Source of the DNA: Meira nashicola
Lineage: Eukaryota; Basidiomycota; Exobasidiomycetes; Exobasidiales; Brachybasidiaceae
Assembly: GCA_001600355.1 (NCBI GenBank)
Contig: BCJU01000001.1
Location: 1,075,178 to 1,139,177 of the forward strand
DNA: 64,000 bases
Reading direction: 5' to 3'
In this document: positions 16,401 through 58,432 of the stretch, one piece after another
How positions within the stretch are numbered: the stretch's first letter is position 1
Layout: every line of letters begins with the position of its first letter
Notes under the pieces: model-generated
The model's input: only the letters and a program-made list of their open reading frames with translations
What the model was told of the DNA's origin: nothing
Database searches by the model: none
Made by a program: the position numbers and the translations under genes

Positions 16401-18090
16401 CAGGCATAGATTGTCGTGCACTACTGAAGGTCTCGAGAGGCTGAAAAGATGGTCGTTGAAAGTCCATTCTACTCTGATTGTCACGAGAAAACAATTCCAT
16501 ATCGGAATGCATCGATCTTGAAAGTGGCATAGAGCTTCTTTGCGGGAAATCTGACAAACGTGGAGAACTTCGCGCCCTATATGCTGATTCCAACGCTGAT
16601 CCTTGTAATGGCTCTTGAACAGATGACGTCCTTCGCTTCCTTGTTCTACGTTCGATATTACTATTTACTGGACTCGAAGAACGTCCTTCAATGATAGAAT
16701 GTATGCTCATAGGACTATTGACAATAGTTGGCGTTTGTGGATCGGGACTTCTTGCTGCACGCATCAGAGAAGACATAAAGGAAGCAGTTCGACCTGGTTG
16801 CTGTGTGTTCTGATCTGGCGGTGAAGACAGCTTTGCCATGGGTAAAGAAGGTCTTGATCTATTGTTGGATTCGCCTTCATTGTTACGCGTCATTTGATCA
16901 CTGCGAATCTCACTCACACTACTCGAAGAACCAAAAGAGCTCCGCTTCCTTTGATCGCTGGAGTGTGAACTGTTTTGCTTTTGTCTAAAGGATGAAGTTG
17001 AATCCTCTTCATCGTTTGTTGGATCTTCCCTCGTAGCCATATCACTAACTTTTGATGTGGAAGTTTGGTCAAAAAGAGGAATTTGCCTTCTGGCAAACTT
17101 TGAAGCGGGTGAATGATTGACCTTAAATTGAGAAAATTCCGAGCGATTTTCCCTATGGAAAAGGTTAAAATCTTGTTGGCTTTGGCGCTCATACTGACTG
17201 TAAGACTGATGAGGCGGTGAGTGAAATCGAAATGAATCCGTCGCACGATCGTTTATATTGCGCACAGTCTCATTTCTCCCAATATCATCCAGCGTTTCGC
17301 TAAACTTTTTACGATCATCCCGGCTTTTGTTCGTGTATAATTTCGTTTCAAGAAGCGATCGTTTATTCTCCGACCGTGCTTGAAAATGTTCATTTGCCAC
17401 GTCTTCAGTTAAATTATTCTTATTTTCATAATCTTGTCTCTGGATAGCTTGATTACTCTGTCGTCGTATTTGTTTGTATGGATCCGCTTCATCGCGGTCA
17501 CCGCTCAAATTTCCGCCTTGAAGTATCCTTTCATCCTGCACTGCCGCTGTTTGTGAATCTTTGTTCGTATCAAAAATTTCGTCCGAATTATTTAGCCTTT
17601 TACTTTCGATTTGATCGGCAAGCTTTACCCTATTATCATCATCTTTTCGCGGCTCCGAAAATTTGGTCTGAAAAGACGAGTCATTTGTATACGTACTCCG
17701 CTCTTCATCTGCGCCGCTAATTTGTCGCATATATTGACCTTGATGATGAACAGAAGATGAAGAAGGTGAAAGTTTAGCTAATCGTTCATAAGGTAAAGGT
17801 GGCGTAAATGGATGATCGTCGTGTTCATCTGATTGATGTCGTTGTACCAAGGAAGAAGATGACGCAAGTGGCTTGGTAAAAGAGCTTCCAAGATTACGCT
17901 GATTATTATTACCTGACCCATCAGTCACATCTTGTCCTTGATATTTCGGAACTGATTGCTGAGAAGTTGATGAATAATAGGATTGAGCTGAAGCGCCCAC
18001 ATCGCTCATCTCGCTTGGCGGTGACGCTTGTTGCTTCATCATGCATGCATTTACAGCAAGCATATACCACTCAAACAGACGAATCCACAA
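13426..18090 (-). CDS. CSL-family (CBF1/Su(H)/LAG-1) transcription factor
   Basis: A 1554-residue single-exon DNA-binding protein. Residues 1 to about 760 are disordered (S, R, Q, N-rich). The LAG1-type DNA-binding domain begins near 765 and contains the hallmark QKSYGSEKRFLCPPP. The beta-trefoil part includes INVISKPARKS (the FISKPSKK-like motif) around 950 and runs to about 1130. C-terminal TIG-like segments (ITPLP near 1180, FCWTIVTISCTEVSYIEA near 1340) finish the protein. Glycine/serine and other low-complexity insertions split the core, as in fungal CSL proteins. The family binds GTGGGAA-like DNA; fungi have no Notch, and the yeast homologues Cbf11/Cbf12 act in adhesion, cell cycle and lipid metabolism. 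The long N-terminus resembles the Cbf12-like class. Downstream ATGs such as the one preceding KQQASPP could be the true start. Confidence 0.93.
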   Translation of the reverse strand: MWIRLFEWYMLAVNACMMKQQASPPSEMSDVGASAQSYYSSTSQQSVPKYQGQDVTDGSGNNNQRNLGSSFTKPLASSSSLVQRHQSDEHDDHPFTPPLPYERLAKLSPSSSSVHHQGQYMRQISGADEERSTYTNDSSFQTKFSEPRKDDDNRVKLADQIESKRLNNSDEIFDTNKDSQTAAVQDERILQGGNLSGDRDEADPYKQIRRQSNQAIQRQDYENKNNLTEDVANEHFQARSENKRSLLETKLYTNKSRDDRKKFSETLDDIGRNETVRNINDRATDSFRFHSPPHQSYSQYERQSQQDFNLFHRENRSEFSQFKVNHSPASKFARRQIPLFDQTSTSKVSDMATREDPTNDEEDSTSSFRQKQNSSHSSDQRKRSSFGSSSSVSEIRSDQMTRNNEGESNNRSRPSLPMAKLSSPPDQNTQQPGRTASFMSSLMRAARSPDPQTPTIVNSPMSIHSIIEGRSSSPVNSNIERRTRKRRTSSVQEPLQGSALESAYRARSSPRLSDFPQRSSMPLSRSMHSDMELFSRDNQSRMDFQRPSFQPLETFSSARQSMPGVTFNPSSGNPQRNPGEDSFMRPQSENIPTNLYSQSDHRAHPIDNTLRHFGPGRSSASPRSAYILSGSQSEGERMNTDQVGNAPFTSRSYAHQSSFDQQNYHRGIEHHRSHTDSSHGSRSTRSTEPVASYTVRSPVEKRQSSEGSNPQYPRKNNENTTLVVDPMQWNAEMSSRVTQEQNRWSFTPMPDKRRQVKQSVWDARIHLRTASSYWPPVASNVTTIRCMYANIAQKSYGSEKRFLCPPPSVKINGPLRPCKWISMRVISGDSVTPSVGMISAGAQAFSSGGGGSGGHSLHAKVGSSGSAITATGGGEESALLDLNGEAKFGKLHVGSVSDTTNKVFRLQVNLLRADLPGEETKAGLRNSQDTSGPFQLPFNAWSTFHSAPINVISKPARKSVRTRAASPAIASGSVVCLYNRLNSQTVRTKYLGVETGAIEDVAQVEVARRLVARQDGWEGFSIELLARPVNDPAIARANSKGYQTDDWGITYGSIVCLRDVNTKLCSDPMLICKVDKGKVELSGFFGSKAGHLARFQITSKHREEARQILFGGSRGENASMNDKLSSSKHSIRETASGMPSLSSLTDSGGQESGNVQSQLTGQFDSANPEIATIAGGPVIQMQKVTLMHITPLPSQDSPDIVKCDLSSARSYLCSTVNENAENESSMAAIARSQARLRSRSHAVRQGQLGLPIELLEPQASPTVPKGDYKGNSPTRSLQSTSSPTNASNPSMGAMHDYIHSLQSQPAPVGFARPPALVNSSSQVNNQNQIDLLEDQFCWTIVTISCTEVSYIEANATPPDAVDDKGRLNIKPKVQSDQKSHHIPLGPLPITPYPCFAALPSYDSRSHSLAATIHDYLYADDLDATRSIPNTVSAVHAFSKKAAHEVWLGHSEPLQTHASSAGPHMSDVTIKLPGMEELMNLHIEFHANSHDDRVIQQLKAEGTSLIKLPIVFVRVAQGVSFPSGHWLLAEYGANPLMGNTARSPYDPMAWSIRII

Positions 18091-20978
18091 GAATTTTCTC
18101 CTTCTTTTTCTTCTTCTTTCGGTAAAATCTTCCTAATTGGTAGCATTCATCGTACCAACTCCAATCAGAGTAAATGCTCTTTGACTAGTCTTGTATGCAT
18201 ATACGATGGTATTCCGCTGTAGAAGCTTTTGAATAATTTCTTCCAATGGTAAACTTTACCAAAAATAAAGCTTGTAGCGATCTGAGCTTCGATCGAAAAG
18301 AGCCGTGCTTGAATGAATGATGATGAAAGATGGGATCCAAGCGTATGAAATGTGAAAAGAAGTGAGGAGTGTATGTGATTATCTTCAATGACAAGTTCGG
18401 GCGAGAGTCGGTCAATCACATTAAAATCGAGATCATCGGAGCAAAACCGCTAAGAAAAAAGAAGCAGCAACTGCATAAAAACACACTTTATCTGAACCCC
18501 ATCCGTGCCCGATGTTTTTAAGCCAGCAAATCAGCGGCAATCAAATCAACCTAACTGATTGGTGTAAATGCGGGAGAAAGTACATTTCTTGGTTCCCTAG
18601 TGGGATTCGGTCATGCTTCTATGGAGTAAACAAAAAAAGACATAAATCCGTTTCATTCGCCGAATCAAACGACATTTTCGGTACGAGAACATGAGCATCT
18701 GCGTGGGCAAATATATGAGACATTAAACTGCATAAAGCAAGCCATGATGCTATTCTTCTCTTCAGTGGCATTTCCGGGTCTGGGCTGACACGTAGATAGT
18801 AGTTTCTTTCTTTCGTGTGAAAAGAGAGCAAGATCAAGGGTAGCTGCCATTCCATTTATTTTTTGTTAAAAGCATCCCACGCCTCAGATGCACATTTTCA
18901 GTATATGTAGAGTGACCTGATGCATGTGCAAGGTCCTCTTTGGAAGCCTGTCATCCACACATTGACTATAGGATTGCTATCTTTCCCTTTCATTGTTGAA
19001 AAAGGATATTCATTCGTCTTAAAAGCCCAGCGCAGGCACGAAAGCCAAGCGGGAGAGGACTTAAAAGAACAATGGTTTCGTGCAGCGCGCCACAGGCATT
19101 TTTTTTTTTTGTTTAATAGCGTATTTCTTCTCTTTCATGCACATCAATGAAGGCTACCCCAGCTGTGTATCATAATCATTTTCAATTTATGTTCGATTTT
19201 TATTTGCGCTTTTTTTTTCTCCGAACTAGGATAGTGTACAAGTTAAAAGAAGTATCGTACGTATCAAAACTTCTAGTTTGGGAACAGAAGTTTGATTCCC
19301 CGTTTTAACACTAACGATAGAAATAAAGATAGATTGGCGCTTAATCATTAAACACCTTCATTATGCCAGTAAAATTACAATATTCTCCGTGGACTTAACA
19401 AGCCTGCATTAGGACAGCGTCGGATTATGTAGGAGAGTTAAATGCTTATTTTGTCGGGGAATCAATCTTTGACGTGACGGATAAGCGTGCAGACCGGATC
19501 AAATTGTATGTATGTAGAACATTTCGGCTGAGAATCTACCCGATAATAATCATAAGCTCTTCAGAATGTACATTTAATCTTTTCAGACCGAATAAGAAGA
19601 TATGATCGATAAAAACGATGCAAGTTATTCCTATTACACAATAGAAGCTGCAGATTGTGTATTGTTCGAATATGTTCTAATATTAATGCAAATTTACTAT
19701 TTTAGAGAATTCGAAAAGGGTGCGGCCAAAAAAATAGACTAAACTAACGGGCTAAAGTTTACATTGATATTGCAAAACATATCATTTAGTTGCGTGCTTC
19801 CATATTTCCGTATCGTTATCTCTTGCATTTCCGTCGAATATCTATTGATTCTAAATTGACATATGCATCCCTAACACGGGTACTTAAAGTTCTTAAAAGA
19901 ATTTTTCGGTGAGAAATATGCAAGATTTGTAATATTGTTTTCTATGCAAGATAAAGTTGTTATTGCTTCGGATTGTGCTAAACGTGTTGTAATTTTCCAA
20001 GCGTGTTGGATTGAATGGTGTGCTTATGTAATCTGCTAGTTCAAGTCACAGTCCATCTCTATGTTTCTCGTTCGTCATTAAATGTGAATTGATATTGATT
20101 ACTTTCGCATGCTGGTTGCTTCGATTTAAAGTGTCTCTTCATGATTATGAATCTTGAAATCTCAAATTCTTTCGCCTTGGGCATAATTACTGAACTTATA
20201 GCTTTTTTGACATATATTGCTGTTTATATCGTTTTGTGAATGCGTTACATTATTAAAGTCTGACTGGAATGTTGGCAGGCCCAGTCATGATGAGACACTC
20301 TTATGTACCTTTTTAAACACGAATATACTCTTTTCGAATCATCATAATTTACGATTTAAACGTCGCAGATTAAATTTTACAGAATAAATAATATATTCTT
20401 CAAATATTGATTAAATATTGTTCAGCATGAAGAACGCAAGGGATAACATCAGATCGGACAAGAGCATAGATATAGAAAGCCAACTTCATGACACTAACAA
20501 TGTGTCCTTTCTTGAACTGTAAAAAGGCACCTAAAAAAACGAATTTGATTTTCAGAATGTTATATAAAAATCAAGTCTTTTTTCATTTTCACAGCAAAAG
20601 ACCTAACAACTCCTAAGGAAAACACAAAGGACATATAAGTATCGATTGAAAAGCATCGTGTACTGAATAATGTCAGCAACATACCGATTAGACGAATTAG
20701 ACAATGATGCATCACCATGAATTTGCCGGGAAAGTTTATATCGGGAGATGGCCATGCGTGGCTTAGCGCAGCGCAGCGCTTTGACTGTACAAAGGCATTT
20801 TCGGTACATAGTCTAGTCTAGTCTACACGCGTGGAGTGTGAATTGTATTGCAACGCGACTTTGCAGAGTTTACCCTAGCGCATCCCAACGTGTTCTTCAG
20901 AAGGAAAGGCCATCATCATCCATCATTGCGTTACACAGTATGGTATTGAGGCAGCATGGACAACCAAATCCAGAAAAT
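18091..20978. other. Long gene-free region between divergent CSL and PIG-T genes
   Basis: About 2.9 kb between the CSL start (minus) and the PIG-T start (plus). Only short, unconvincing open frames occur. There are poly-T runs near 19100 and 19210, a GC-rich AGCGCAGCGCAGCGC patch near 20765, a triple TAGTC repeat near 20812 and an ACGCGT at 20827. It is divergent promoter DNA; most of it probably serves the CSL gene, because housekeeping promoters elsewhere in the window are short. Confidence 0.55.
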
Positions 20979-45266: not shown

Positions 45267-47591
45267 ATGTCTGCTAGAATGAATCATGCTTCAACACGAC
45301 GACTGAATCCTTCTCAGCCTTCCTCAGATAGGTATATGCGAAACTCAAACAACTTGATAATTTCAGACGACATACCGACAACCGAAGATGATACGGAAAG
45401 GCCATCTAAACGAACAAAGCATACTACTAATAAACTTGCTTGCGTTCGTTGTCGAAATTTAAAAGCACGATGTGAAATGCAAATTCCTACAAATGGAAAA
45501 TGTATACGTTGTACTCGTTTATCATTTGATTGTGTTTGGGTGGAAAGTCAAAAACGTGGACGTAGATCGAAAAACGCGAGGTACGTAAAATGTGTTTATT
45601 GGAATTAACGAGTAGTAGCTAAAAATTACCATCCTTTTCCGCCTTACATCAAGTCTTCAATCCGATCATAACACCGATGAAAATGGTGTAGAAGACTCTC
45701 AGGATCGGGACAGATCTCAAGATACTGCCGAAAAGTTTACTTCGACTTCTCCAACGAGAGAAAATCCAGAGAGCGTGCCCTCTATTGGCTTAAGAACGTC
45801 GCCTCGTGCATCCTTTCAGACAACACATTTACCTGCACCTCAGCAAAACATTTCACAAAGAGGCATAATGAACGACGAATCTCCACTTGATCCCAGTCCT
45901 CACAGCACGTCTCAACGATCCTATACTTTTCAAGATTCAATACGGGAGGGTATCAGCCCACAGTCGGCTTTGCCAAGTCTTTCGATGATGGACCTTGCTC
46001 AAGCAAAAGAAAAGGCACTACAGGATCTCAATTCGGCTCCTAGGTCAAATTTGACAGAGCCAAGGCAAGTAAATCTCGACACTGTACCTGAAGCAGATCC
46101 GATTGATATGCATGTACTCAGCGAATTAGATGCTCGTCAATTATTCGATCACTATCATAAGAGTATGAATGGTTTTATCATCCTTCTCGATCCATTTCTT
46201 CATACGGTTGATTACGTTAGAAGAACGTCACCAACTTTATTCTCTACAATCCTTGCCGTTTCTGCGAAATTTATTCGACCACAACTGTACGACTCGTTAC
46301 TCATGCATGCAAAACAACTCGTAGGCAGAGGAATTATTGATGGAAAAGTTTCGATTGGACTTGTACAAAGTTTACTTATTCAAGTATACTGGAAAAAGCC
46401 AGATGATGCAAGTGCTTGGCTACGTGTTGGCGAAGCGATTCGAATGGGTTATCAATTACACTTACATCGTCATAGAACGGAACCATTACCAAAGGACGAA
46501 TATGAAGCTCGTTTGATTTTAGACAGAGAACGGACTTGGATAGATTTATGCGCATTCGATCAAACATTCTTTCTTCAGAGCGCAGAAGAGGAGGATGGAT
46601 TTCATCAAACATGTATGGTGCCTTTCTTTAAAATAAATGTGAAAGATTGGCTAAAAGAAACAAAACAGTACGGAGTAAAAGATGATTTAGAGCAAGGGGC
46701 AAATTTTGAATGGATAAAGATGCAAAGATTAAGTAGGGATATTCCTCGTGCAAAACCAGGAAATGCCCGTGCCCTTGGTCAGCATATTCGGGGTACTCTA
46801 GAAGCAGCTTATTTTCAATACATTGATCCGAGCTCTCCTGATGCATTCGAAATCGAAAGTCGACCCTGGATCCGGGTAAAGTATTGGCTTGCTGCTGCTT
46901 CTCTAGCTGTTTCTAGAGCTTTGTTGATGGCTATCGGTATTGAAGGTCATTTATTGGCCGATTGGGTGGTTGCATCGACCCTATTTGTTGATGCATTAGA
47001 AGTTGTTGCAAAACATGGATATATACAATATTGGCAAGATACACTTGGGATAACTTTATATTCGATGGGCGAATTTAGTGTAAAAATTTTCAATGATGTT
47101 CATCCTGCAACGCAAAAGTCTATCGTAGGTTGGCTCGAAAGAATTTATCAAGCTTGTGAACTTTGTGCGGATGGACAAACGGAATCAACTGCTGCTTTCA
47201 TTTCACGTTTCTTTCAACTTTGCTTGCGTGCTGTTTGTTCTCCGTCTCTACCTAATGTTCCCGAAACAACTTCTGTCAATAACACTCAAAGCACGGATCT
47301 TTTACAAAATGTATCATTAAATCAGGTGAGTGATACTTATACAAGTCTTAAAGGTGTTTCATCTATTGACCAGGTTATATATAGTCTCTTCCTTGGCTCC
47401 ATGGATCCCAAACACCCTCAAACCTATTTCATGATGCTTCTTATTGGTGAGTAGTATCTTATTTCTATACATTTCAGAAAGGGACAACTAATAAAGCTTC
47501 TATTATAAATATTAGGGAAGGTATTTTTCCAGGTGTCGCAACAGATTGGGGCTGGCTCTTGCAATCTCTCGAAAATCAAATCACTAATTAA
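45267..47591 (+). CDS. Zn2Cys6 (GAL4-type) transcription factor of the aromatic cluster
   Basis: Three exons: 45267-45580, 45654-47446 and 47533-47591. The introns are 73 and 86 nt; the second ends TTTTTCCAG and restores the tail VATDWGWLLQSLENQITN. The product has 721 residues. The zinc cluster at 59-89 reads CVRCRNLKARC...CIRCTRLSFDC (CX2CX6CX9CX2CX6C) and is flanked by basic residues. A fungal-specific TF domain (PF04082-like) follows at about 270-520 (LFDHYHKSMNGFIILLDPF, RVGEAIRMGYQLHLHR). It stands at the edge of the catabolic cluster and reads into it, so it is probably the pathway regulator; inducer unknown. The first intron's acceptor is AAG rather than CAG/TAG, so that junction deserves RNA support. 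Confidence 0.9.
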
Positions 47592-47854
47592 TATTGCTGT
47601 ATACTGAATACATATATCTAGAGTAAGAGAAGAATTATTGGATCAGGATTGACTTTCACAGTGCCTTTTATTTCAACCACCGGGTTGTTAGCGTGGGGAG
47701 AAACGGTGTGCCGTGTGTCTGTATGCCTTGACCGGAGTTTTTTTTTTATATCTACACTATTTAAAAAAGTTCCCCCACTCTTATTAATAAATATCCGTGT
47801 CGCTGTTTATGGTACGGTGTAATTTGTGGGGTAACGAAATTCTCCGGTTCAATG

Positions 47855-47866
47855 GCTTGCTTAGCG
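47855..47866 (+). promoter_or_regulatory. Shared 12-nt promoter element, copy 1
   Basis: GCTTGCTTAGCG, identical to 51570-51581 in the divergent SDR/EthD promoter. It lies 32 bases before the TATA box. Confidence 0.45.
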
Positions 47867-47886
47867 CCGACTCTGATTATGGTTAA

Positions 47887-47895
47887 TATAAAAGG
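47887..47895 (+). promoter_or_regulatory. TATA box of the tandem dehydratase gene
   Basis: TATAAAAGG, 80 bases before the start codon; the EthD gene has the same sequence at almost the same distance. Confidence 0.6.
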
Positions 47896-47966
47896 ACAAA
47901 CGATGATTTACCTATTTACCTATTTTGAAAAGGTCAATATCTGGATATACAATTTCACAATCAAAA

Positions 47967-50301
47967 ATGATGACTACTCTTCCACAAGCTGTTCCGTTTG
48001 GCATTTGTACACGTTCACTCGGTCGTTCTGCTGGCGGTCATTATATTCTGGATATTTTAGACGAATGTGCTAAAAATGGAATGTGGACGATCGAAGTTGC
48101 ATACGAATGTTTAGAAGTGGGTAAAAAAATATGAACTGTAAATTCGAGGGCTAGTACTTAACTTATTTTTTTTCCCCTTAATACCAGGGTTATGCTAAAA
48201 CTTTGAAAGGTTATGATGATCTGAAAGATGCAATTCGTCAAGTTGCTCGTTTGAGTAGTGAACGTGCACGATCATTAGGTCTAGTATTAACGGTATTAGA
48301 CGCATTTGAAAATTATGAAGGTTTAATTGATCGTTCAAAGCATCAAGAGCGCTTTGAAGAATTTCAATTTTGGATAGAAATTTGTGGTATAATGGGAATC
48401 GAATATATTCAAATTCCAGCTTCGTTCGATCCTACAAAATTACTTTCTAACGATCAAGATTTGATTATTAAAGATTTACGTAAAGTAGCTGATGCTGGAA
48501 ATTCCGTTATTCCGCCTATAAAGGTAGGTAAACAGGAAGATTTTCTTTCCTTATTTGTTTTACTAAACAGAACTCCTTAATTTTTTTTTTAGATTGCATA
48601 TGAGCCTTTAGGATGGAGTACTTTTGTTAAAACGTGGGAACAAGGATTGGAGATTGTCAAGAAAGTGAACAGACCGAATTTTGGACTTTGTCTGGACACT
48701 TTTCATATCGCTTCAAGATTATCACACAGTCCAGAAACTAAAGATGGATTACGTGAAGGAGGAAGTGTTGCTCTGAGGGAATCGCTTGAGGTGAGTTTTT
48801 ATTTAATAAAACGTTGCTTGATTCTTTAAACTTATACATCAGATTATATTCTTTTTATAATTAGCGTTTACATAAAGTAGATCGAAACGATATTTTTATA
48901 TATCAACTTTCAGACGGTGCTTTTCCACAATTAGACTTTAAAGGAGATGGAATCGATCCACTCTTTGCTTGGAGTAAACACGGTAGACCATTTCCTGGAG
49001 AAGGTTATTTTCCCGTCATGGAAATTTCACAAGCAATTTTTGCAACAGGATTTCGGGGACCTACAATTGTCGAAACATTTGAAGATGAAGGATTTAATCC
49101 AAGAAAGAGTCTTTTAGCAGAACGTGCAAATCGTGCTATAGGATCATGGGTACAACTTAGCAAATCACTTGGCCTTGCACCTTTTTATCCTCCTACACCA
49201 AAAGGTCAAAATAAACTTGGAACGTGTACGGTAAACATTGGAGATTATAAACACTTTTCATTAGAGGATAAACTTTATGCTTGTGCTTCTGTTGGTCATC
49301 AAGCAATCGATTTATACGAAGATGACTTTTTACATTATCTATCACTCATTCAAGGATCAAATAAACAAAATCTATGGGAACCAAATCTTATTCATCTTGC
49401 AGCAGCTAAAAAGATTGGTGATTTATGTGCTTCTCTTGGAATGCAAATTATTTGTTTTCAACCTTTAATCGATGTTGAAGGTTTAACAAAAGAAAAAGAT
49501 AGACAAGATACTATCGAAAAGGTGAAAGCATACTTTCCATACATGCGTGCTCTCCGCACAAATATAACATATATTACCACAAATCGATCTTATAATTTTG
49601 AAGAAAATACAGGAGATATAAAAACCATTGCCTCCGATTTAGCTTTATTCGCTGATCTAGCTGCGGAATATTCACGCCGTGATAATGGACCTTTACTTAA
49701 AATTGGATATGAGCCACTCTCGTGGGGATCTCGGATCAATACATTTGACAAAGCATGGGAAGCAATTCAATTAGCAGATCGTCAAAATCTTGGTATTGTA
49801 CTTGATACGTTTAATCTTCTTGCAGTGGAGTACGCTGATCCGTACAACTCAAACGGTCACGGTCGAATACATGATACACAAGAGCATTCCTTACACTTAA
49901 TTCGTAATCGACTTGCTCAACTTGTTAAAACAATTCCGGGTGACAAGATTTATGTAGTTCAAGTTGCAGATGCAAAATTAGTAGATCCAAAAATTCTCAA
50001 AACTCCAACTCCATCTGACGCAAAATGGACATCAGATCATGAACCTAAATATCGTCAATGGTCAACTTCTTATCGACTTTTCCCAAATGAACATTCTCTT
50101 GGTGGTTATTTACCCGTTAATGAATGTCTTGCTGCAATTTTAGCAACAGGTTATCAAGGCACTTTAACTTTAGAAATCTTTAATGATTCTATTCATGTTA
50201 ATCAGCCAGAAGTTGTAGCAAATCATGCTAAACGATCAATGATTGGAATTGAATCTTGCGTTGCAGAAGCAAAACAAATTAAAAATATGTACAAGAATTA
50301 A
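47967..50301 (+). CDS. Tandem-domain dehydroshikimate-dehydratase / sugar-isomerase-like protein
   Basis: Four exons (47967-48116, 48188-48523, 48593-48790, 48865-50301) join in frame to 706 residues. Two AP-endonuclease-2/xylose-isomerase-like TIM barrels follow each other, each resembling fungal 3-dehydroshikimate dehydratase (Qa-4/QutC). Barrel 1 (about 10-325) has YEPLGW (E166), CLDTFH (D197), YQLSDG (Q242) and VETFED (E298). Barrel 2 (about 348-700) has YEPLSW (E511), VLDTFN (D542), VQVADA (Q594) and LEIFND (E665). These match the divalent-metal ligand positions of the family, so both sites look active. Family enzymes dehydrate or isomerise cyclic ketones, for example DHS to protocatechuate or inosose dehydration (IolE). 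Known fungal enzymes are usually single-barrel, about 350 residues, so the fusion is unusual. The true substrate is unknown. Confidence 0.9.
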
Positions 50302-50345
50302 AATCAAATGATATTTCAGAGATTATCTATAAAGAAGGACTACTT

Positions 50346-51435
50346 TTAAGCCACAATATAACCAGCATCCATGGCAAAATCTGTGCCGTTACAATAATCG
50401 GAAGCGTCCGAACAAAGGAATAAAACTGCTGAGCCTACTTCATCAACTCTACCGAAACGTGGCCAAGGTGTTTGAGCTCTATAATTAATGCATTTAGTAG
50501 GATCGGAGCTGTTAAAAAAAGATAAACTATGTAAGCACTGATAAAAGATTTTAAAAGATAAGAAAACAACTCACAGTTCCTTTGCGTTTAAAGCTGTAGC
50601 AATTATACCGGGTGAAACGGTAATACACTTTATTCCTTCACGACCATAATCAACTGCAAGTGACCTATTAAGAGCTACAAGAGCTCCTTTTGTGGTACAA
50701 TAAGGCGCTTTATCTGGTGCACCATGATGAGCTGCATTTGAAGAAATTGTAATAATTGTTCCTCTTGTACTTCCTTCACGAGCTTCTTGAGATAACATTG
50801 TTGGCATAACTGCTTTTACACCTAAAAATACTGCTGTAAGATTGATGTTCATAATCAAATTCCATTGTGCTAAACTGCATTCATGAAGAGGTCCAACTTT
50901 GCCTAAAATACCTGCATTGTTGACCAGACTAATTAAAAGAAAGAAGAAGATCAGTAAAAATGTTTTTCTTTATAACATTTTTGCTAAGGAACTTACATAT
51001 CGATTCGCCCATTGATAGCCATAGCAGCTTCAACAGCACATTCCCACGTTTCTTCTCTTGAGACATCGCCTTGAACGAATGCAGAATGTACATTGTATAC
51101 TTCTCGAACGTGGTCAATTGTAAGAGCTTCGTGTTTAATTGTACCCTGTTAAAGTTAAATGAATATATGTAATTGTTAGTATATATATAGACCATATAAA
51201 ACTTTATAAAACTCACATTTACAGGTCCAGGAAGTAAGTCAACTCCAACAACTAGTTTTAAAGATAAAGGATAAATATTAATATTCTTATATTTCTACAA
51301 AGGTAAACGCGCTATAGCATACTCACTGTTTACCCCAGCTTGTGCTAAAGATATTGCAATCGCTCGACCATTACCTGTTGATGAGCCTGTAACGATGGCA
51401 GTTCTTCCACTTAGATCATAAGGTGCCTTCATCAT
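50346..51435 (-). CDS. Short-chain dehydrogenase/reductase (SDR), five exons
   Basis: Exons 51435-51327, 51251-51217, 51145-50997, 50928-50575 and 50508-50346 join in frame to 269 residues, the classical SDR length. Seen: TGSSTGNG at 16-23 (TGxxxGxG cofactor loop), NNAG at 101-104, Ser in TISSNAA (about 160) and YCTTK at 174-178 (catalytic Tyr and Lys). The C-terminus GTDFAMDAGYIVA is typical of the family. An Asp (GVDLLPG) after the second strand suggests NAD(H) rather than NADP(H). It is divergent from the EthD gene over 286 bases, implying co-regulation. It probably oxidises a secondary alcohol of the pathway substrate; this is an inference from context. Confidence 0.93.
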
Positions 51436-51721
51436 GTTAGCATAAAATTGATTTGGAGAAAAGAGAAGAGAGACTATAATAAGAAGCTTATTATAAATGC
51501 TTTCTACAATATCATTTACCCCACGCCGAAGCATAATAATCTGGAGAAATTATCCGTGTTGGAAATAAAGCTTGCTTAGCGTAATTTCTTAAATTTCCGT
51601 ATATACTTCTTCCGACTCCGGCTAAGGCTAATATCGTACTAGAAGGAAGATATAAAAGGAAGGTGTTGATTAAGGTCTTATTTTAAATTTATTTCTCAAT
51701 CACTAAAACAAGAAAGGAAAA
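51436..51721. promoter_or_regulatory. Divergent SDR/EthD promoter
   Basis: 286 bases. It contains AAATTATCCGTGTT (51547-51560), the 12-nt GCTTGCTTAGCG (51570-51581), TTTCCGTATA (51594-51603, repeated at 52503-52512) and GACTCCGG (about 51614). A TATA box TATAAAAGG (51651-51659) lies 71 bases before the EthD start. Confidence 0.6.
51570..51581 (+). promoter_or_regulatory. Shared 12-nt promoter element, copy 2
   Basis: GCTTGCTTAGCG, identical to 47855-47866. It sits 18 bases after an ATCCGTGT box and about 80 bases before the TATA box. Confidence 0.45.
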
Positions 51722-52239
51722 ATGACTTTTACCGTTCTTATCACAGTTTGGCGTAAACCTGGAATGACGATGAAGGAATTTTATGATCATTACGAGAATG
51801 TACATATGCCTTTAATTCGTGATTTAGCAGGTGACAAGATTCCAATAAGTCATAATCGATTATACGTAGAACGTAATGGACCTAATCTAGAAGAACGTAT
51901 GGTTCAACCTTCAGAATGCGGAGATGGAATTGATTATGATGCAGTAGCAGAATTAAACTTTAAGGATGAAGAACACAATTTAGCTTATTGGAAAATACTT
52001 TATCGTCCAGAAGCTCAAGGTAGATTAACTGAAGATGAATATAAATTCATGGATCGTTCAAAACTTCGTATCGTTTCTATGTACAAAAAGGAACTGATGA
52101 TTCGAAAGTGAGTAATTTATAATTAGATAATGTTGAAGAGACACTAACCGTTCACCTTTATCTTTTTTTTAGCGACTTCCATTCTGGAACAGATAGCGTA
52201 CAAGAATATCCCTTCCTCCCACACGGAAAATTTGCTTGA
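51722..52239 (+). CDS. EthD-type dimeric alpha+beta barrel protein
   Basis: Exons 51722-52107 and 52173-52239, split by a 65-nt intron (GTGAGT...TTTTTTAG) in phase 2, give 150 residues. The N-terminal strand VLITVWRKPGMTMKEFYDHYENVHMPLIRDL is the EthD/ferredoxin-like signature (KPG-x(3,6)-F-x(2)-HY...H-x-P). Proteins of this fold act as small isomerases, decarboxylases, ring-modifying enzymes or electron-transfer helpers in aromatic pathways. Which one applies here cannot be read from sequence. The conserved His residues (DHYENVH) could be catalytic. It shares a promoter with the SDR and sits between it and the transporter. Confidence 0.9.
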
Positions 52240-52515
52240 GATATTAATAATTATATATCGATATGTATGTATCAAAAAAAATAATAAATTCTTTCTTCAT
52301 TATTTATCATTCGTGAGATTATTAAGCTATAAATATTCCGACTGACATCTACATCAATGCGAGCGAGACATAAGGCATGAAGACACCACACTCTCTCAGA
52401 TTGTGTATTATTAAAAAATACTGTATTTTAGAAGGTAATTCAATCTCTACACCAAAGGCACACCTACACCACTACCATATTTTCCGGTGTAAGATTATTT
52501 TATTTCCGTATAGAA

Positions 52516-52525
52516 AAATATCCGG
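52516..52525 (+). promoter_or_regulatory. AAATATCCGG box
   Basis: The 10-mer also occurs inverted at 56710-56719, and its last nine bases occur inverted at 45003-45011. Candidate half-site of the cluster's Zn2Cys6 factor. Confidence 0.45.
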
Positions 52526-52663
52526 TTCTGTTAAGCGAAGCCAATATATAATCTATACTTAAGATATATAACTAGAAAATAATTTTACCGCTTAAAGTGA
52601 TTTTATGCCTACATGCCGCGGTGGCGCAGCGCCTTGTCTAAAATTTAATTATCCGGTTCTGTT
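52520..52663 (+). repeat. Direct repeat ATCCGGTTCTGTT, 131 bases apart
   Basis: Identical 13-mers at 52520-52532 and 52651-52663, both within AT-rich flanks (AAAAAT and TTTAATT). Probably paired regulatory sites. Confidence 0.5.
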
Positions 52664-52923
52664 CCTAGCAAGACATTGACGGGGCCCCGCATTTTAAGCC
52701 TGCCGTTTTATTTTCAGGTTAGACTTTCACTGATCTCTCGCGCGTATTTCTGCTCTTATCGTCCGTCCGTTCGTCATCTTTAAATCTGACCAAATCGACA
52801 CAATCTGTTTGATTTTGTATATATATATAAGAATCTGTATAACAATTTCAGGATGTAATATTTCGTTTATCCTTTCTCATTTTCATTCATCAAACTTATT
52901 CCCCACCCTTTTTTAAACACAAT

Positions 52924-54753
52924 ATGTCGTTCGAAAGTGTCACAAAAGACATGAAAGATTCAATCAATATACAAACTACGGACCGTGTCGAATCTTTGGC
53001 AGGTGATCATATAAATGTTGCCGGTATTCGTGATGATTTAATTATTGCCGATGGTGAAAAAGATGTGAGTAACATTTGTCTTATATAATTATACTTATTT
53101 TTATTGACTTTCAATTTATTCTCAGATCAATAAATTCGTTTGGTATTTATCAACTGTAGCTGGTATTTCTGGTTTTCTTTGTGAGTTTTTCTTAGGCGTT
53201 ATTATGAGGTCAATTAATACTTATACATCTCTTCATCATCTTAGATGGTTGGGATACGGCTGTCGTTGGTGGTGCATTGGCAAATATTGGAGATGCACTT
53301 GGCCATGAACTGAATTCAGTCGAAACAGAATGGGCTGTTGCTTCACTTTCTGCAGGTGGTATTCTTGGAACTTTGATTGGAGGTTCACTTTCTGATAAGA
53401 TCGGTCGAAAAGCCGTTCTAATGATCGGTGACGTCTTATTCATTTTAGGTGGAATTTTAATTTGCTCTTCTTTTTCACTCATTCAATTTATCGTTGGTAG
53501 AATTTTAATGGGAGGAGGAGCAGGAATTGCAACTGTCGTTTGTGCAGTTTACCTTGGAGAAGTTGCACCTAGTATGCATAGAGGTAAAATCGTTGCCGTT
53601 CAAAGTGTAATGATTACTGCCGGTCAACTTTGCGCTTATGCAGTAAGTGCTGGATTGGAAAATATTTTTAATGGTTGGAGAATTTTATTCGCTTTAAGTT
53701 TACCTTTTGCGATTGGTCAAGGAATTGGAATGCATTGGTTACCTGAAACGCCTAGATTTGCAGTTTTAATTGGTAGAAATGAAAATGCACAAAAAACACT
53801 TGAATCAATTTATCCAAAAGCAACTCAAGATCAATTAGATAAAAAGTTACATGCAATTCAAGCTGCGACTGAAATTTCAGTTTCACTTAAAGCTACTCAT
53901 CCTACCTTTATTGGACGTATTTTTGCCGTTTGTACGACACCTACTTATTTACGTTGCGTTACTTGTGCAGCTGTAGTATTTTTAGGACAACAATTATCCG
54001 GTTGGAATTCATTTTTATATTATTCAAGTACTCTTTTTGGCGCTGCTGGTTTCACAAATACTTCAGCTGTTGGTATTTTGGTTGCAGGTATAAATTGTAT
54101 CTTTACAATCCTTTCAATGTTTACTATGGATCGTATAGGACGTCGTAGAATATTTTTAATTGGTGTTCCAATTATGACTATTGCTCTTGCTATTGCTGCA
54201 GTTGCATTTCATTATATGACTCTAACCACAAATGGTCAATTATTAGACGGTCAAGATTATCCACAAAAATGGGTTGGATTAATGCTTGGAATGATGTGCT
54301 TCTTTATTGTTGGTTATGCACCTTCTTTAGGAACGATTGCATATACTACAATCGAACTTATTCCGCTAGAAGTACGTGGAATTGGTTCTGCTATTGCAGT
54401 TGCTTTTCAATGGGCAGGAAATCTTATTATCAGCTCTACCTTTCTCACAATGCTTAAATCGATGGGCGCAGCTGGAACTTATGGTTTATTTTCTGGTCTT
54501 TGTTTTTTAACGTTTATCTTTATCTTTTTCTGTTATCCTGGTAAGTTGGCTGCTAGGTACTTTATTTATCTCGTTTATATTTTACTAATCTTTTTTATCC
54601 ACTTCTTATACTTTTTTAGAATCTGCTGGACTAACATTAGAAGAGACTGGAACGCTCTTTATTGATGGATTCGGAGTCAGAAAAGCCGATCAAATTCGAA
54701 AAGCTAAAAGGACAAAGAACGACTTAGAATCCAGAAATATGTCAGAATTATGA
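52924..54753 (+). CDS. MFS sugar/cyclitol transporter, inositol-transporter-like
   Basis: Four exons (52924-53064, 53126-53180, 53245-54540, 54620-54753) join in frame to 541 residues. A 12-helix sugar-porter protein: GWDTAVVGGAL in helix 1, GGSLSDKIGRK between helices 2 and 3, RILMGGGAGI and LPETPRF after helix 6, MDRIGRR in the second half and PESAGLTLEETG after helix 12. The segment TAGQLCAYAVSAGLENIFNGWRI resembles the fungal Itr1/Itr2 myo-inositol permeases more than hexose or quinate permeases, though I could not run a comparison. It is a plasma-membrane proton symporter by family. Within the cluster it likely imports the pathway substrate. Confidence 0.92.
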
Positions 54754-54823
54754 TTAAATTTTATAGTGAACAGTGAATTGTATTGATCGGATTTGTTATA
54801 GTAATTTACGATTTTAAAACTTA

Positions 54824-56442
54824 TTATTGAAGACTAGCATAATAATTTGCCAAAGATTTTTGTTTTTGCTCTTCCGCTTGTGCTGTCGTTAAAAGTACGT
54901 AATCTTTTTTTAAATGCCAAAAAGGACCATTCTTAAATCCGAGAGCTGTAGCTTTGCTTCGGTCTGTAACGAGAATTGGCTCTACGATGAGTGAAGTTTT
55001 TACACCAAATACAGCATCACTGAGAGTAGAAGAGTTAGCTATAGTTTAGCAGAAGAAGCGAGATTTATCACTCACGATTTAAGATATGGGTCTCCTTTGA
55101 AATATAAGGCAGTAATCAAAGTTTCGTATCCTTCACAATAGAACATCCTAGATGGGTTAAATAAATACTTAAAGTTAGCAACTCTATAAGATAAGCCATA
55201 AATGAACACTTACATGTGCAAATGTGCTGGACGAAAAACGTGACGGTTCAAAGATTTGAGTAAAGCACCAACTGGTCCATCATTTGGGATTGGATATGGA
55301 GTCGGTAAGATTGCACGGTACTGCAAAGGCAAAGGCAAATATTAGTCATCTTAAAGAAGCTATTTAATTTCCTAACAGAACTCACAGAATAATAGCCCTG
55401 CTCATCCGAAATAAGCCTTCCACGGCAATCTGCTTCACTTCTTCCTTCATATTGTGTATCGTATCTTTACGAACAAAAAAAACGCCTGTCAACAAATCAA
55501 ACATTATTGTGATTATTTTCATATAAACTCACTTTCCTTCATCATCCGTTTCCCATGTTTCAATTTTACAGTTAGGAATCGGATTTCCATCGATATCGAT
55601 TATACGACCTTCACACCACATATACTCTCCCTTGCCTTCTGAAGCGATCGAATCTCCAGCTTTAATCTTTAAACAAGAATAAATTAAAATGTTAGCAAAA
55701 TATATACTCCTTATAAAGTCGTTTATAAATACTAACCTCTTTTGCATCCTCTGTAAAGAAAGGACCTAAAACTGTTCCTTCAGTTGCTGAAGCTGTTACA
55801 GGATGATTCATTGAATCAACCAAAGCTGAAACACCAAGAATATCCGAAAGAAGAATAAACTCTTGACGAATGTCGGAGCAGATTTTACCCGTTGAAGTCA
55901 AAAATTGGATTGCGGTCCTGATTTTAGTGTCATATAAAGTAAGTTAGGAGAATTGATTATATCATTCAAATAGGTTACTCACATCCACTCTTCTGTTGTA
56001 AGTCCAACTTCTCGTGTAAAATCGTGCAAGTGGGTTACAAGCTTTTCGAATAAAAATTTTTGTCTGTAGAGAAAGGAAAATAAGCTTTGGACAACTGCAT
56101 AAAAATGTTTTAAAATATCTCTTACTTTAATTACCTTTTATCTTTGCAGAGAGAATTGATTGCAATTACATTTTCAGTAATCGAAGCTGGACTCATGTCC
56201 ATAAGGTTCGGAAGGAGGTCCTATCAAGGGGAAAATAATTACAATCATTGTCTTTTAATATTTCACTTTTCCTTTCCAGTAAGAGGAACACACTTACAAG
56301 GTCTACATTCGGTGCTCCGGATTTTATTGCGTCTAAAACGGCTTTTCCTACCTAAATATAGAAGAAAGTTATATTAAGAAACATTATACGAAAAATATAA
56401 AATCATCTTACATACCTTTTTCGATGATCTTTCTTCGCTCAT
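54824..56442 (-). CDS. Intradiol ring-cleavage dioxygenase, hydroxyquinol 1,2-dioxygenase type, ten exons
   Basis: Exons: 56442-56416, 56351-56298, 56220-56135, 56063-55983, 55917-55737, 55666-55533, 55464-55386, 55320-55214, 55147-55076, 55019-54824. They join in frame to 338 residues. The N-terminal helical linker domain (about 1-115) mediates dimerisation; the catalytic beta-sandwich includes EGTVLGPFFTEDA, WETDDEGKYDTQY, PTPYPIPNDGPVG and FRPAHLHM. The non-haem Fe(III) ligands are predicted as Y189, Y223, H247 and H249, with spacing of 24 and 2 between the last three as in the family. It cleaves hydroxyquinol or catechol between the hydroxyls. The adjacent maleylacetate reductase argues for hydroxyquinol. 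Nine introns in 1.6 kb is the highest density in the window. Confidence 0.95.
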
Positions 56443-56856
56443 TGTGGATTTGTAAAGTTATATTTAGATATTCTGAAAGTGGTGGCTAGAAGGTAGATTG
56501 ATGATATCAACTCTTCTTCCTAATTTTATTCATATCATTACCCCACCTTGATATTCTCTCGAACCTGCATATAGTACTTATGCTTATACGGAGAATTGCG
56601 TGGCGCACATTATCACTCGACTTTTTTCATAAATTGAGCCGAGTAAGAATCCTATGTGCGTGTGCAGCGCGTCAGTCGGAAATAAACAAGAATCAATATA
56701 TTCTTGCAGCCGGATATTTTCAACAACGTGGGGAAAAAGTTCTTCTCCGGTCCAGTTCGTAAATATCGGAGAAGTTTAATATATAATCTAGAGGTGTTGT
56801 AGAATGATATACCATAATTACGCCTTCCAACCTCTACCCTTATTTAGGCTACCGCT
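56443..56856. promoter_or_regulatory. Divergent dioxygenase / maleylacetate reductase promoter
   Basis: 414 bases. Elements: AAATATCCGG on the minus strand (56710-56719), an 8-bp perfect inverted repeat CTTCTCCG (56742-56749) and CGGAGAAG (56767-56774) with a 17-base spacer, and the TATA block AATATATAATCTA (56778-56790), 79 bases before the reductase start. Confidence 0.6.
56742..56774. repeat. Inverted repeat CTTCTCCG-N17-CGGAGAAG
   Basis: Perfect 8-bp arms carrying CCG and CGG ends facing inward over 17 bases, directly upstream of the TATA block. This CCG-spacer-CGG geometry is that of a dimeric Zn2Cys6 binding site. Confidence 0.55.
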
Positions 56857-58432
56857 ATGGAACCTTTCGTTTATAATGCTCTTCCAGCTCGTGTGATATT
56901 CGGTTGGGATACTTCAGAAAAGGTGTCAGAAGAAGTTTTACGACTTGGTTGTGTAAGTCAATGTTTGTTTGTCATAGATTTTATATATTGAAACTAAATT
57001 CATATTCTTTATAGAAACGAGCATTGGTTTTGACTACTTCACAACAAGTTGAATCTGGTCAGAAAGTTTTGAAAGATCTGGTATGTAAGATTAGAAGGAC
57101 TTTAAAGGGAAACATGCTAATATATCTTTAATATTCATTTATGATTAGGGAGAACTTGGAGTCGGAATTTATAGCAATGCAACGATGCATACTCCTATAA
57201 ATGTTACTTTAGACGCTTATAAAGTAGCAACGGAGTTACAAGCTGATATTTGTGTACGTATCCTCGGATTGATAGTCTAGTAGTGATACAATCTTACCCG
57301 AACTCTTTATCTCTCTTTAGGTGGCCGTTGGAGGAGGTTCAACAATTGGACTCGGAAAAGCGCTCGCTTTATATTCCTCAAATCAAAATAGCAAGATCAA
57401 ACAAATTGCCATCCCAACAACGTGTAAGTTATTACACTATTAGAATATTTCTTGTTTTTTCTACCCCTTAGCGAGAATACTGATACCTTTCTTTATAGAT
57501 GCAGGATCAGAAGCCACTCCTATAATCGGTCAAACTGATATTGATAATGAAGGAAAGACGGTTAAAACAACTCAAAAGACACTAAATGTGTTACCAGAGG
57601 TTATAATTTATGATATCAACTTAACACTTACCCTTCCTACTCAAATGACGGTGAGTTTAAATAATTTTTTATCATTTCATAATCTTATCTTTTACTGATC
57701 TGTTTTCCTTTTTTAGATCACTTCAAGTTTAAATGCAATCGCACATGCTGTTGAAGCTTTATGGTCGCCTGAAGCAAATCCTATTATTTCAAATTTAGCT
57801 ATTCAAGGTATAAGATCGATCAGTCAAAGTTTTCAATCAATCAATAAAAATCCTAAAGATCGAAATGGTAGAAGTAATGCACTTTTTGGAGCATGGAGTT
57901 GTGGTACTTGTTTAGGAGCAGTAGGAATGAGCTTACATCATAAATTAGTGAGTACATTTATCGTGATACAGTTCTAGAATAGTTTTAAAATTAATAAAAA
58001 CAAAATCCTTCCTTTTCTTTAAAAAGTGTCATACTCTCGGAGGAACATTTGCTATGCCACATGCCGAAACACATGCAGTGATCTTACCTCATGCAATTGC
58101 ATATAATGCTCCTTTCGCAGTCAGTCAAGTTGAGGAAATAAAAAATGCATTGAATTTGCAAGATGAAATTTCAGCAGCTCAAAGTCTTTTTGATATTCTA
58201 AAAAGTTACAATATACCTTACAGCCTCAAACAATTGGGATTCAAGCAAGAAGATTTACGAAAAGCAGCCGAGATTGCTGTAAAGTCACCTTAGTAAGTTT
58301 TTGTATTGAAAAAATATGCTTCTTTTCATCTCTCTAACATACTTTTCCAGTCCAAATCCCGCCCCTCTAGAAGAGGAGAAAATATTCCAGCTTCTCTCCA
58401 ATGCTTACCATGGTAATCGCCCAGAAATCTAA
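56857..58432 (+). CDS. Maleylacetate reductase (iron-containing ADH family), eight exons
   Basis: Exons 56857-56952, 57015-57080, 57149-57253, 57321-57423, 57499-57650, 57717-57947, 58027-58292 and 58351-58432 join in frame to 366 residues, the usual family length. Seen: N-terminal FVYNALPARVIFG, VAVGGGSTIGLGKA at 90-103 (dinucleotide site), IPTTYAGSEATPI, SLHHKLCHTLGG at 247-257 and MPHAETHAVILPH at 261-273 (His-rich site in the family's metal/active-site region). It reduces maleylacetate, the ring-cleavage product of hydroxyquinol, to 3-oxoadipate with NAD(P)H. It is divergent from the dioxygenase, so both are likely induced together. One acceptor (before exon 7) is AAAAAG rather than YAG. 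Confidence 0.95.

Follow-up and report, generated by a model that had tools for sequence, protein, structure and literature searches.

The basidiomycete Meira nashicola carries a cluster of seven contiguous genes that may turn a cyclitol into hydroxyquinol, and hydroxyquinol into 3-oxoadipate, without the help of an aromatic monooxygenase. The cluster occupies positions 45267-58432 of the stretch of 64,000 nucleotides that was analysed (hereafter the window; assembly GCA_001600355.1, contig BCJU01000001.1, positions 1,075,178 to 1,139,177). It encodes a Zn2Cys6 transcription factor, a protein with two barrels, a short-chain dehydrogenase (SDR), an EthD-family protein, an MFS carrier, an intradiol dioxygenase and a maleylacetate reductase. 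A monooxygenase-free route from cyclitol to hydroxyquinol is a plausible task for these genes, to which we give an even chance. We are about half persuaded that this is a dedicated catabolic cluster, in which the SDR, the EthD protein and the carrier would have the roles, and the substrate and steps the nature and order, that are proposed here.

The lower end of the pathway is the most secure. A dioxygenase and a maleylacetate reductase together convert hydroxyquinol to 3-oxoadipate, and the two window enzymes can be firmly placed in this hydroxyquinol branch by family, as had been claimed from the sequence alone. The dioxygenase (54824-56442, minus strand; 338 amino acids, 10 exons) has its strongest PDB match in 8r2v (4.1e-109), a structure bearing a general name. 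Among specifically named enzymes, the hydroxyquinol ones are by far the strongest (8r2w, 'Hydroxyquinol 1,2-dioxygenase', 9.2e-100; 1tmx, 7.9e-70), while catechol enzymes match at 3e-33 or weaker and protocatechuate enzymes are also far below. The reductase, an Fe-ADH (56857-58432, plus strand; 366 amino acids, 8 exons), matches the maleylacetate reductases 3hl0 (2.7e-99) and 3w5s (1.6e-98), as well as the generally named 3jzd (5.3e-106) and 3iv7 (8.2e-75); other matches are at 3.6e-35 or weaker.

In the proposed route, the carrier would import an alicyclic polyol of the cyclitol kind, and the SDR would turn one of its ring alcohols into a ketone. The two unlike, metal-dependent barrels would then perform one elimination each, or one elimination and one isomerisation, after which the EthD protein would complete the tautomerisation or the last loss of water to give hydroxyquinol. 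The dioxygenase would open this ring to maleylacetate and the reductase would form 3-oxoadipate; at no step would an aromatic monooxygenase be needed. Quercitol had been put forward as a chemically balanced substrate. Its formula does fit, but any inositol that loses three waters also arrives at C6H6O3, with no net change of redox state; quercitol is thus one of several balanced substrates, and the identity of the substrate is a guess.

No flavin monooxygenase is linked to the cluster, as the sequence-only reading had noted. The family (PF01494), sought exon by exon, has at least 17 matches in the genome (17.88 Mb, 20 contigs; 19 of 32 candidates were scored) and none in the window. Twenty other long open reading frames (ORFs) of the window gave no monooxygenase domain at E <= 1e-5, in a scan that left out ORF 13429-18132 and ORFs below 135 amino acids. 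Dehydroquinase and quinate dehydrogenase had also been described as missing. This is correct for the window, since all matches to PF01220 (dehydroquinase) and PF08501 (shikimate dehydrogenase) fall outside it, but the genome has both at a separate locus (C1:6219333-6228914). There, two genes of the shikimate/quinate dehydrogenase family and a dehydroquinase II are accompanied by a Zn2Cys6 factor, an intradiol dioxygenase, a maleylacetate-reductase-like gene and a barrel, in pieces, that resembles 3-dehydroshikimate dehydratases (DSDs). The barrel piece lies below the Pfam cut-off and matches the window barrels by tblastn at 3.6e-11. The dioxygenase and reductase are diverged paralogues of those in the window (about 49% and 42% identical, respectively), and a sugar-porter ORF lies about 7 kb away. 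Judging by these families, quinate seems to have its own locus in this genome, which argues for another substrate for the window cluster. At C1:6219333-6221639 the quinate-dehydrogenase frame apparently runs into the first strand of a dehydroshikimate-dehydratase barrel, as a fused gene; the barrel part has an in-frame stop, which could mark a pseudogene or a base error. Two small ORF pieces that look SnoaL/NTF2-like by eye (C1:6229263-6229895) adjoin the maleylacetate reductase of this locus; the one piece that was scanned had no Pfam match.

The two-barrel protein (47967-50301, plus strand; 706 amino acids, 4 exons) contains two AP_endonuc_2 TIM barrels and is 84% identical to its Meira miltonrushii counterpart. 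In NCBIfam, both barrels fit the 3-dehydroshikimate dehydratase model QuiC best (3.9e-22 and 4.6e-38), with scores far below a curated cut-off that was set for the whole two-domain protein. An origin from inosose dehydratases was considered and is unsupported: neither barrel matches an IolE model at E <= 0.01 in NCBIfam, a library which we take to include one, and among the 50 Foldseek rows listed 5hmq ranks first (2.9e-16) and the IolE structure 9zmv only 39th (1.2e-7). The earlier label 'dehydratase-like' was right in kind, with QuiC and not an inosose dehydratase as the best model.

Compared with the active-site residues of QuiC, as given in excerpts of PMC7442255, both barrels keep E134, D165, Q191, E239, S206 and R210 (QuiC numbering) in all 11 sequences. 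They differ from one another at positions 64 (Glu/Ile) and 168 (His/Asn), and each state is invariant in 11 of 11 sequences. Arg64 of QuiC is replaced in both, and His168 is retained in barrel 1 alone. Since the two active sites are unlike and each is invariant, it is likely, as far as residue conservation can tell, that the barrels catalyse two distinct reactions. The idea that two barrels remove two waters gains from this in part, as separately conserved metal sites suit successive steps, although the closest enzymes act on a carboxylated ring. Alternatively, barrel 1 might be an isomerase or epimerase (IolI-like or ketose-epimerase-like) that prepares the substrate, with only barrel 2 dehydrating and the other elimination taking place in the EthD protein or spontaneously. 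This version, which we regard as quite improbable, would still be free of a monooxygenase. It is tempting to read the loss of Arg64 as proof of a substrate that is not carboxylated, but this argument was dropped, because position 64 also varies in a DSD-like protein (P0018, where it is Trp). Position 168 is Asn in a further DSD-like protein, encoded in this genome by a single-barrel ORF at C2:252292-253551, that is 34-36% identical to QuiC. In Pseudohyphozyma bogoriensis, the two-barrel protein (P0010) is annotated with an N-terminal PF04199 (Cyclase) domain, either a real fusion or merged neighbours.

Two-barrel proteins were sought among 7994 scored candidates, of which the best 120 of 395 matches were listed; the statements on fungi below refer to the matches listed. 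Ten near-full-length proteins were found, one per named species: Meira, three Rhodosporidiobolus, three Rhodotorula, Leucosporidium, Meredithblackwellia and Pseudohyphozyma. Identity between Meira and the red yeasts is 60-72%. The SDR of the window (50346-51435, minus strand; 269 amino acids, 5 exons) and the EthD-family protein (51722-52239, plus strand; 150 amino acids, 2 exons), which has both the EthD domain and the dimeric alpha+beta barrel fold, seem to accompany the two-barrel protein in some other fungi. A word-based search for EthD yielded 11 relatives from 13 candidates. As read from locus-tag numbers, the genes for SDR, EthD and barrel protein are confined to a span of at most five genes in both R. 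ruineniae (008705, 008706, 008708) and R. microsporus (007850, 007852, 007854). In R. toruloides (004767, 004769) and in R. poonsookiae (006543, 006544), the SDR lies near the barrel protein. SDR and EthD have adjoining tags in R. lusitaniae (005840, 005841), and Rhodotorula toruloides carries all three proteins (EthD in another strain). Contigs of equal size suggest that two or three of the trio occur together in Leucosporidium (700,482), Meredithblackwellia (2,403,475) and two metagenome contigs (31,039 and 9,788). Overall, locus tags place the SDR close to the barrel protein in four of the ten named species, and in two more the pair shares only a contig. Among proteins listed under the fern Adiantum nelumboides, one matches the window SDR at 100% identity over 61% of its length, so this fungus or a near twin is probably present in the fern assembly.

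The carrier (52924-54753, plus strand; 541 amino acids, 4 exons) is a sugar-porter MFS transporter. Only the Sugar_tr, MFS_1 and SP porter families pass their cut-offs, so the more specific label 'inositol-type' is not borne out. A substrate of a different kind, resorcinol or another phenol, would be hydroxylated to hydroxyquinol by an unlinked phenol-hydroxylase-like enzyme, leaving the barrel protein, SDR and EthD protein with a side task. A suitable gene is present (C2:2870513-2871721; 1foh, 3.9e-76), but a phenol substrate would explain neither the sugar-porter carrier nor the neighbourhood of barrel, SDR and EthD proteins in other fungi, and we consider it very unlikely. A further aromatic locus (C3:112349-117950) comprises a dioxygenase, an ORF that is lactonase-like by eye, and a flavin monooxygenase.

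The search for similar gene sets in other genomes, suggested by the sequence-only reading, did find bacterial loci where the dioxygenase and the reductase of the hydroxyquinol branch stand with polyol-type uptake and dehydrogenases, and where no flavin monooxygenase match is seen. GTDB contigs were scanned with an alignment of hydroxyquinol dioxygenases, which gave at least 80 loci, and 80 were kept. Absence of a flavin monooxygenase means here that there is no phmmer match to three such enzymes of this fungus (E <= 1e-5 or 1e-8). At E <= 1e-5 a match was present in 38 of the 80 loci and missing from 42. A barrel ORF related to the fungal barrels or to QuiC occurs in seven loci, with a flavin monooxygenase in L084 and L117, and without one in L080 (Mesorhizobium ventifaucium), L089 (M. 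muleiense), L094 (Bradyrhizobium iriomotense), L119 and L128. The first three of the latter encode sugar-type ABC uptake, a zinc dehydrogenase, SDRs, YciI, dioxygenase, maleylacetate reductase, barrel and CoA transferase, to which L094 adds a thiolase. Another 37 loci, seen through query matches (L103 also with Pfam and NCBIfam, and two proteins of L066 with NCBIfam), have neither a flavin monooxygenase nor a barrel match; 25 of them have the reductase and 12 do not. Within 40 ORFs of L089, L094, L103 and L167, Pfam revealed no monooxygenase family, two-component ones included.

The association also emerges when the barrel is the starting point. At E <= 1e-40, the bacterial barrel is found in 18 of 146 genomes from the same genus as L089, a count that includes L080 and L089; around L094 it is found in one of 297 genomes sampled from the order and one of 391 from the family, in both cases that of L094 itself. 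Sixteen new loci of the Mesorhizobium group, picked by the TIM barrel alone, all have an SDR, and 12 have the reductase, 12 YciI and 11 the dioxygenase (seven of these in an initial stretch of at most 20 kb, four in the adjoining one); a flavin monooxygenase match (E <= 1e-8) is found in none of the 16. L172-L175 gave no dioxygenase, reductase or YciI match in the 50-59 kb fetched for each. Together with L180-L187 they show a barrel, SDRs, zinc and Gfo/Idh dehydrogenases and ABC uptake, without the other three nearby. A second barrel near L094 (L142:3752-4684) was not counted, as a gene that appears methyl-accepting-chemotaxis-like by eye intervenes.

Like EthD, YciI is a family of small dimeric alpha+beta barrel proteins. 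A YciI/EthD-like ORF (E <= 1e-4) is found in 15 of the 42 loci without a flavin monooxygenase and in one of the 38 with one (Fisher p 1.7e-4); three of the 15 (L058, L059, L105) are weaker matches, of about 1e-8 to 1e-13, and at E <= 1e-8 the counts are 14 of 42 and one of 38. A zinc dehydrogenase related to that of L094 shows a similar pattern (12/42 against 3/38), as does a Gfo/Idh protein related to that of L089 (9/42 against 1/38). L089, L094 and L167 were the sources of the queries for zinc dehydrogenase, Gfo/Idh protein, YciI and barrel, and both L089 and L094 belong to the 42 loci without a flavin monooxygenase match. In NCBIfam, the binding proteins of L094 and L089 fit a rhizopine binding protein model best (9.1e-76 and 6.1e-77), and scyllo-inosose 3-dehydrogenase IolM is the best model for zinc dehydrogenases of L094 (1.8e-51) and L103 (5.7e-45 and 3.8e-49). 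In L103, a Gfo/Idh protein has inositol 2-dehydrogenase as its best model (3.3e-34). L057, L066, L096, L099, L103, L104 and L128 look like a second type of locus without a flavin monooxygenase, with zinc dehydrogenases (IolM-like in L103, the locus tested), Gfo/Idh and YciI.

These observations allow a broader proposal: that fungi and rhizobia have each built a route from cyclitol to hydroxyquinol by oxidation and successive losses of water, without an aromatic monooxygenase. The fungus would use one chain with two unlike DSD-type barrels, and rhizobia a single barrel, inositol-type dehydrogenases and a rhizopine-type transporter. We hold this proposal tentatively, at slightly less than even confidence. 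By sequence comparison, the bacterial loci are a parallel in their set of predicted functions and not orthologous by descent.

Several findings weigh against the cyclitol route. On the bacterial side, the barrels share no more than 18-24% identity with the fungal barrels. The counts given above overstate the association, because the loci are mutually related and include some sources of the queries. All matches to rhizopine and inositol models are under the curated cut-offs; for the zinc dehydrogenases of L103, L-threonine 3-dehydrogenase comes close (148 against 154 bits and 156 against 167 bits), and the best model for the binding protein of L066 is D-allose. No NCBIfam model was matched at E <= 1e-20 by the binding protein of L103, the Gfo/Idh protein of L089 or one ORF of L066. 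On the fungal side, the linkage described covers, of the seven genes, the trio of barrel protein, SDR and EthD. Neither the EthD protein nor the SDR of Meira is among the matches listed, and no linked partner appeared there for Meira, R. kratochvilovae, R. araucariae or Pseudohyphozyma. Within the genome itself, the quinate locus has no linked flavin monooxygenase match either, though protocatechuate needs such an enzyme to reach hydroxyquinol. The missing linked monooxygenase is therefore weak evidence, and it was dropped as proof.

Finally, both barrels are nearest to DSDs, whose substrate is carboxylated, and a candidate for the hydroxylase that a carboxylated substrate would require exists elsewhere in the genome. 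This flavin hydroxylase (C20:9800-10891) has 8gsm, '4-hydroxybenzoate decarboxylase', as its best PDB match, followed by 8x38, 'Decarboxylative Vanillate 1-Hydroxylase', and is a candidate for the decarboxylating type. A gene at C11:82043-83137 looks similar; the comparison with PDB structures concerns the C20 copy. According to parts of PMC12388069 and PMC10406623, PhyA of Aspergillus niger converts protocatechuate to hydroxyquinol. With a shikimate-type substrate, the SDR would give 3-dehydroshikimate, the barrels protocatechuate, and an unlinked hydroxylase hydroxyquinol, which the window enzymes would finish. The DSD-like barrels, the two hydroxylase genes and the PhyA precedent favour such a scheme. 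However, the genome already has a separate quinate locus and the single-barrel DSD-like protein, the window has no match to dehydroquinase or the shikimate dehydrogenase family, and one dehydration needs no second, differently conserved barrel. Position 64, as said, points the same way with less force. We rate a shikimate-type substrate as unlikely, and the cyclitol interpretation as a whole emerges partly supported.

The cyclitol route would differ from known systems mainly at its front end. The fungal quinate (qa/qut) cluster shares the Zn2Cys6 regulator and a DSD-type barrel with the window, which has instead of the quinate enzymes an SDR, an EthD protein and two fused barrels. The DSDs (Qa-4, QuiC/QsuB, AsbF) have the TIM barrel, the metal ligands, S206 and R210 in common with both window barrels; the window chain differs in consisting of two barrels, and in the changes at position 64 and, in barrel 2, at 168. 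In the known two-domain DSDs, QuiC and QsuB, the second domain is HPPD-like, according to the portion of PMC7442255 consulted. Inositol catabolism through IolE and IolI shares the superfamily and the idea of dehydrating a keto-cyclitol, whereas the product proposed here is aromatic. The branch that reaches hydroxyquinol from nitrophenols, resorcinol or protocatechuate through flavin monooxygenases has the same dioxygenase and reductase, whereas the window would have a polyol-type front end. Among the Mesorhizobium and Bradyrhizobium loci (L080, L089, L094, L160-L171), all 15 have the barrel, SDR, YciI and reductase, 14 have the dioxygenase (L163 is truncated by the contig end), none has a flavin monooxygenase match, and most have sugar-type ABC uptake. 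They differ from the window in their single barrel, in YciI for EthD and in ABC for MFS uptake, and some also encode a zinc dehydrogenase, a CoA transferase and a thiolase.

Each part of the cluster is of a known family, and what would be new is the front end of a hydroxyquinol catabolic cluster. In one open-access library, no link of inosose or rhizopine with hydroxyquinol was found and nothing on EthD/CTB10; the matches listed do not mention quercitol or deoxy-scyllo-inosose. Nor did the papers listed from that library describe a DSD-type protein with tandem barrels that, together with an SDR and an EthD protein, precedes the hydroxyquinol branch. If the route is real, an ordinary ring-shaped sugar alcohol can serve as the entry to an aromatic ring-cleavage pathway, joining cyclitol and aromatic catabolism, and plain plant cyclitols would feed the 3-oxoadipate pathway. 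It would also provide a function for a family of tandem-barrel proteins that in red yeasts mostly carry the annotation 'xylose isomerase-like' or 'hypothetical', and for bacterial hydroxyquinol operons that lack a flavin monooxygenase match, and would suggest an oxygen-free enzymatic way of making hydroxyquinol from cyclitols.

The remaining gene of the cluster encodes the Zn2Cys6 transcription factor (45267-47591, plus strand; 721 amino acids, 3 exons; Zn_clus 3.1e-7), which from its position is likely to be the cluster regulator. The gene models were built by placing GT-AG splice sites from the sequence alone; after splicing, all seven genes read through with no internal stop, and each protein has its expected Pfam family, so the earlier description of an intact, contiguous set holds. 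On either side lie ordinary genes, Put_Phosphatase to the left and SurE and MutS-type to the right. GC content sets the cluster apart as a unit: of the 32 2-kb bins of the window, the five lowest are those at 48001-58000 (0.343-0.355; the rest 0.364-0.449). This low-GC island, together with the patchy distribution in Meira and red yeasts, hints at horizontal transfer of the cluster.

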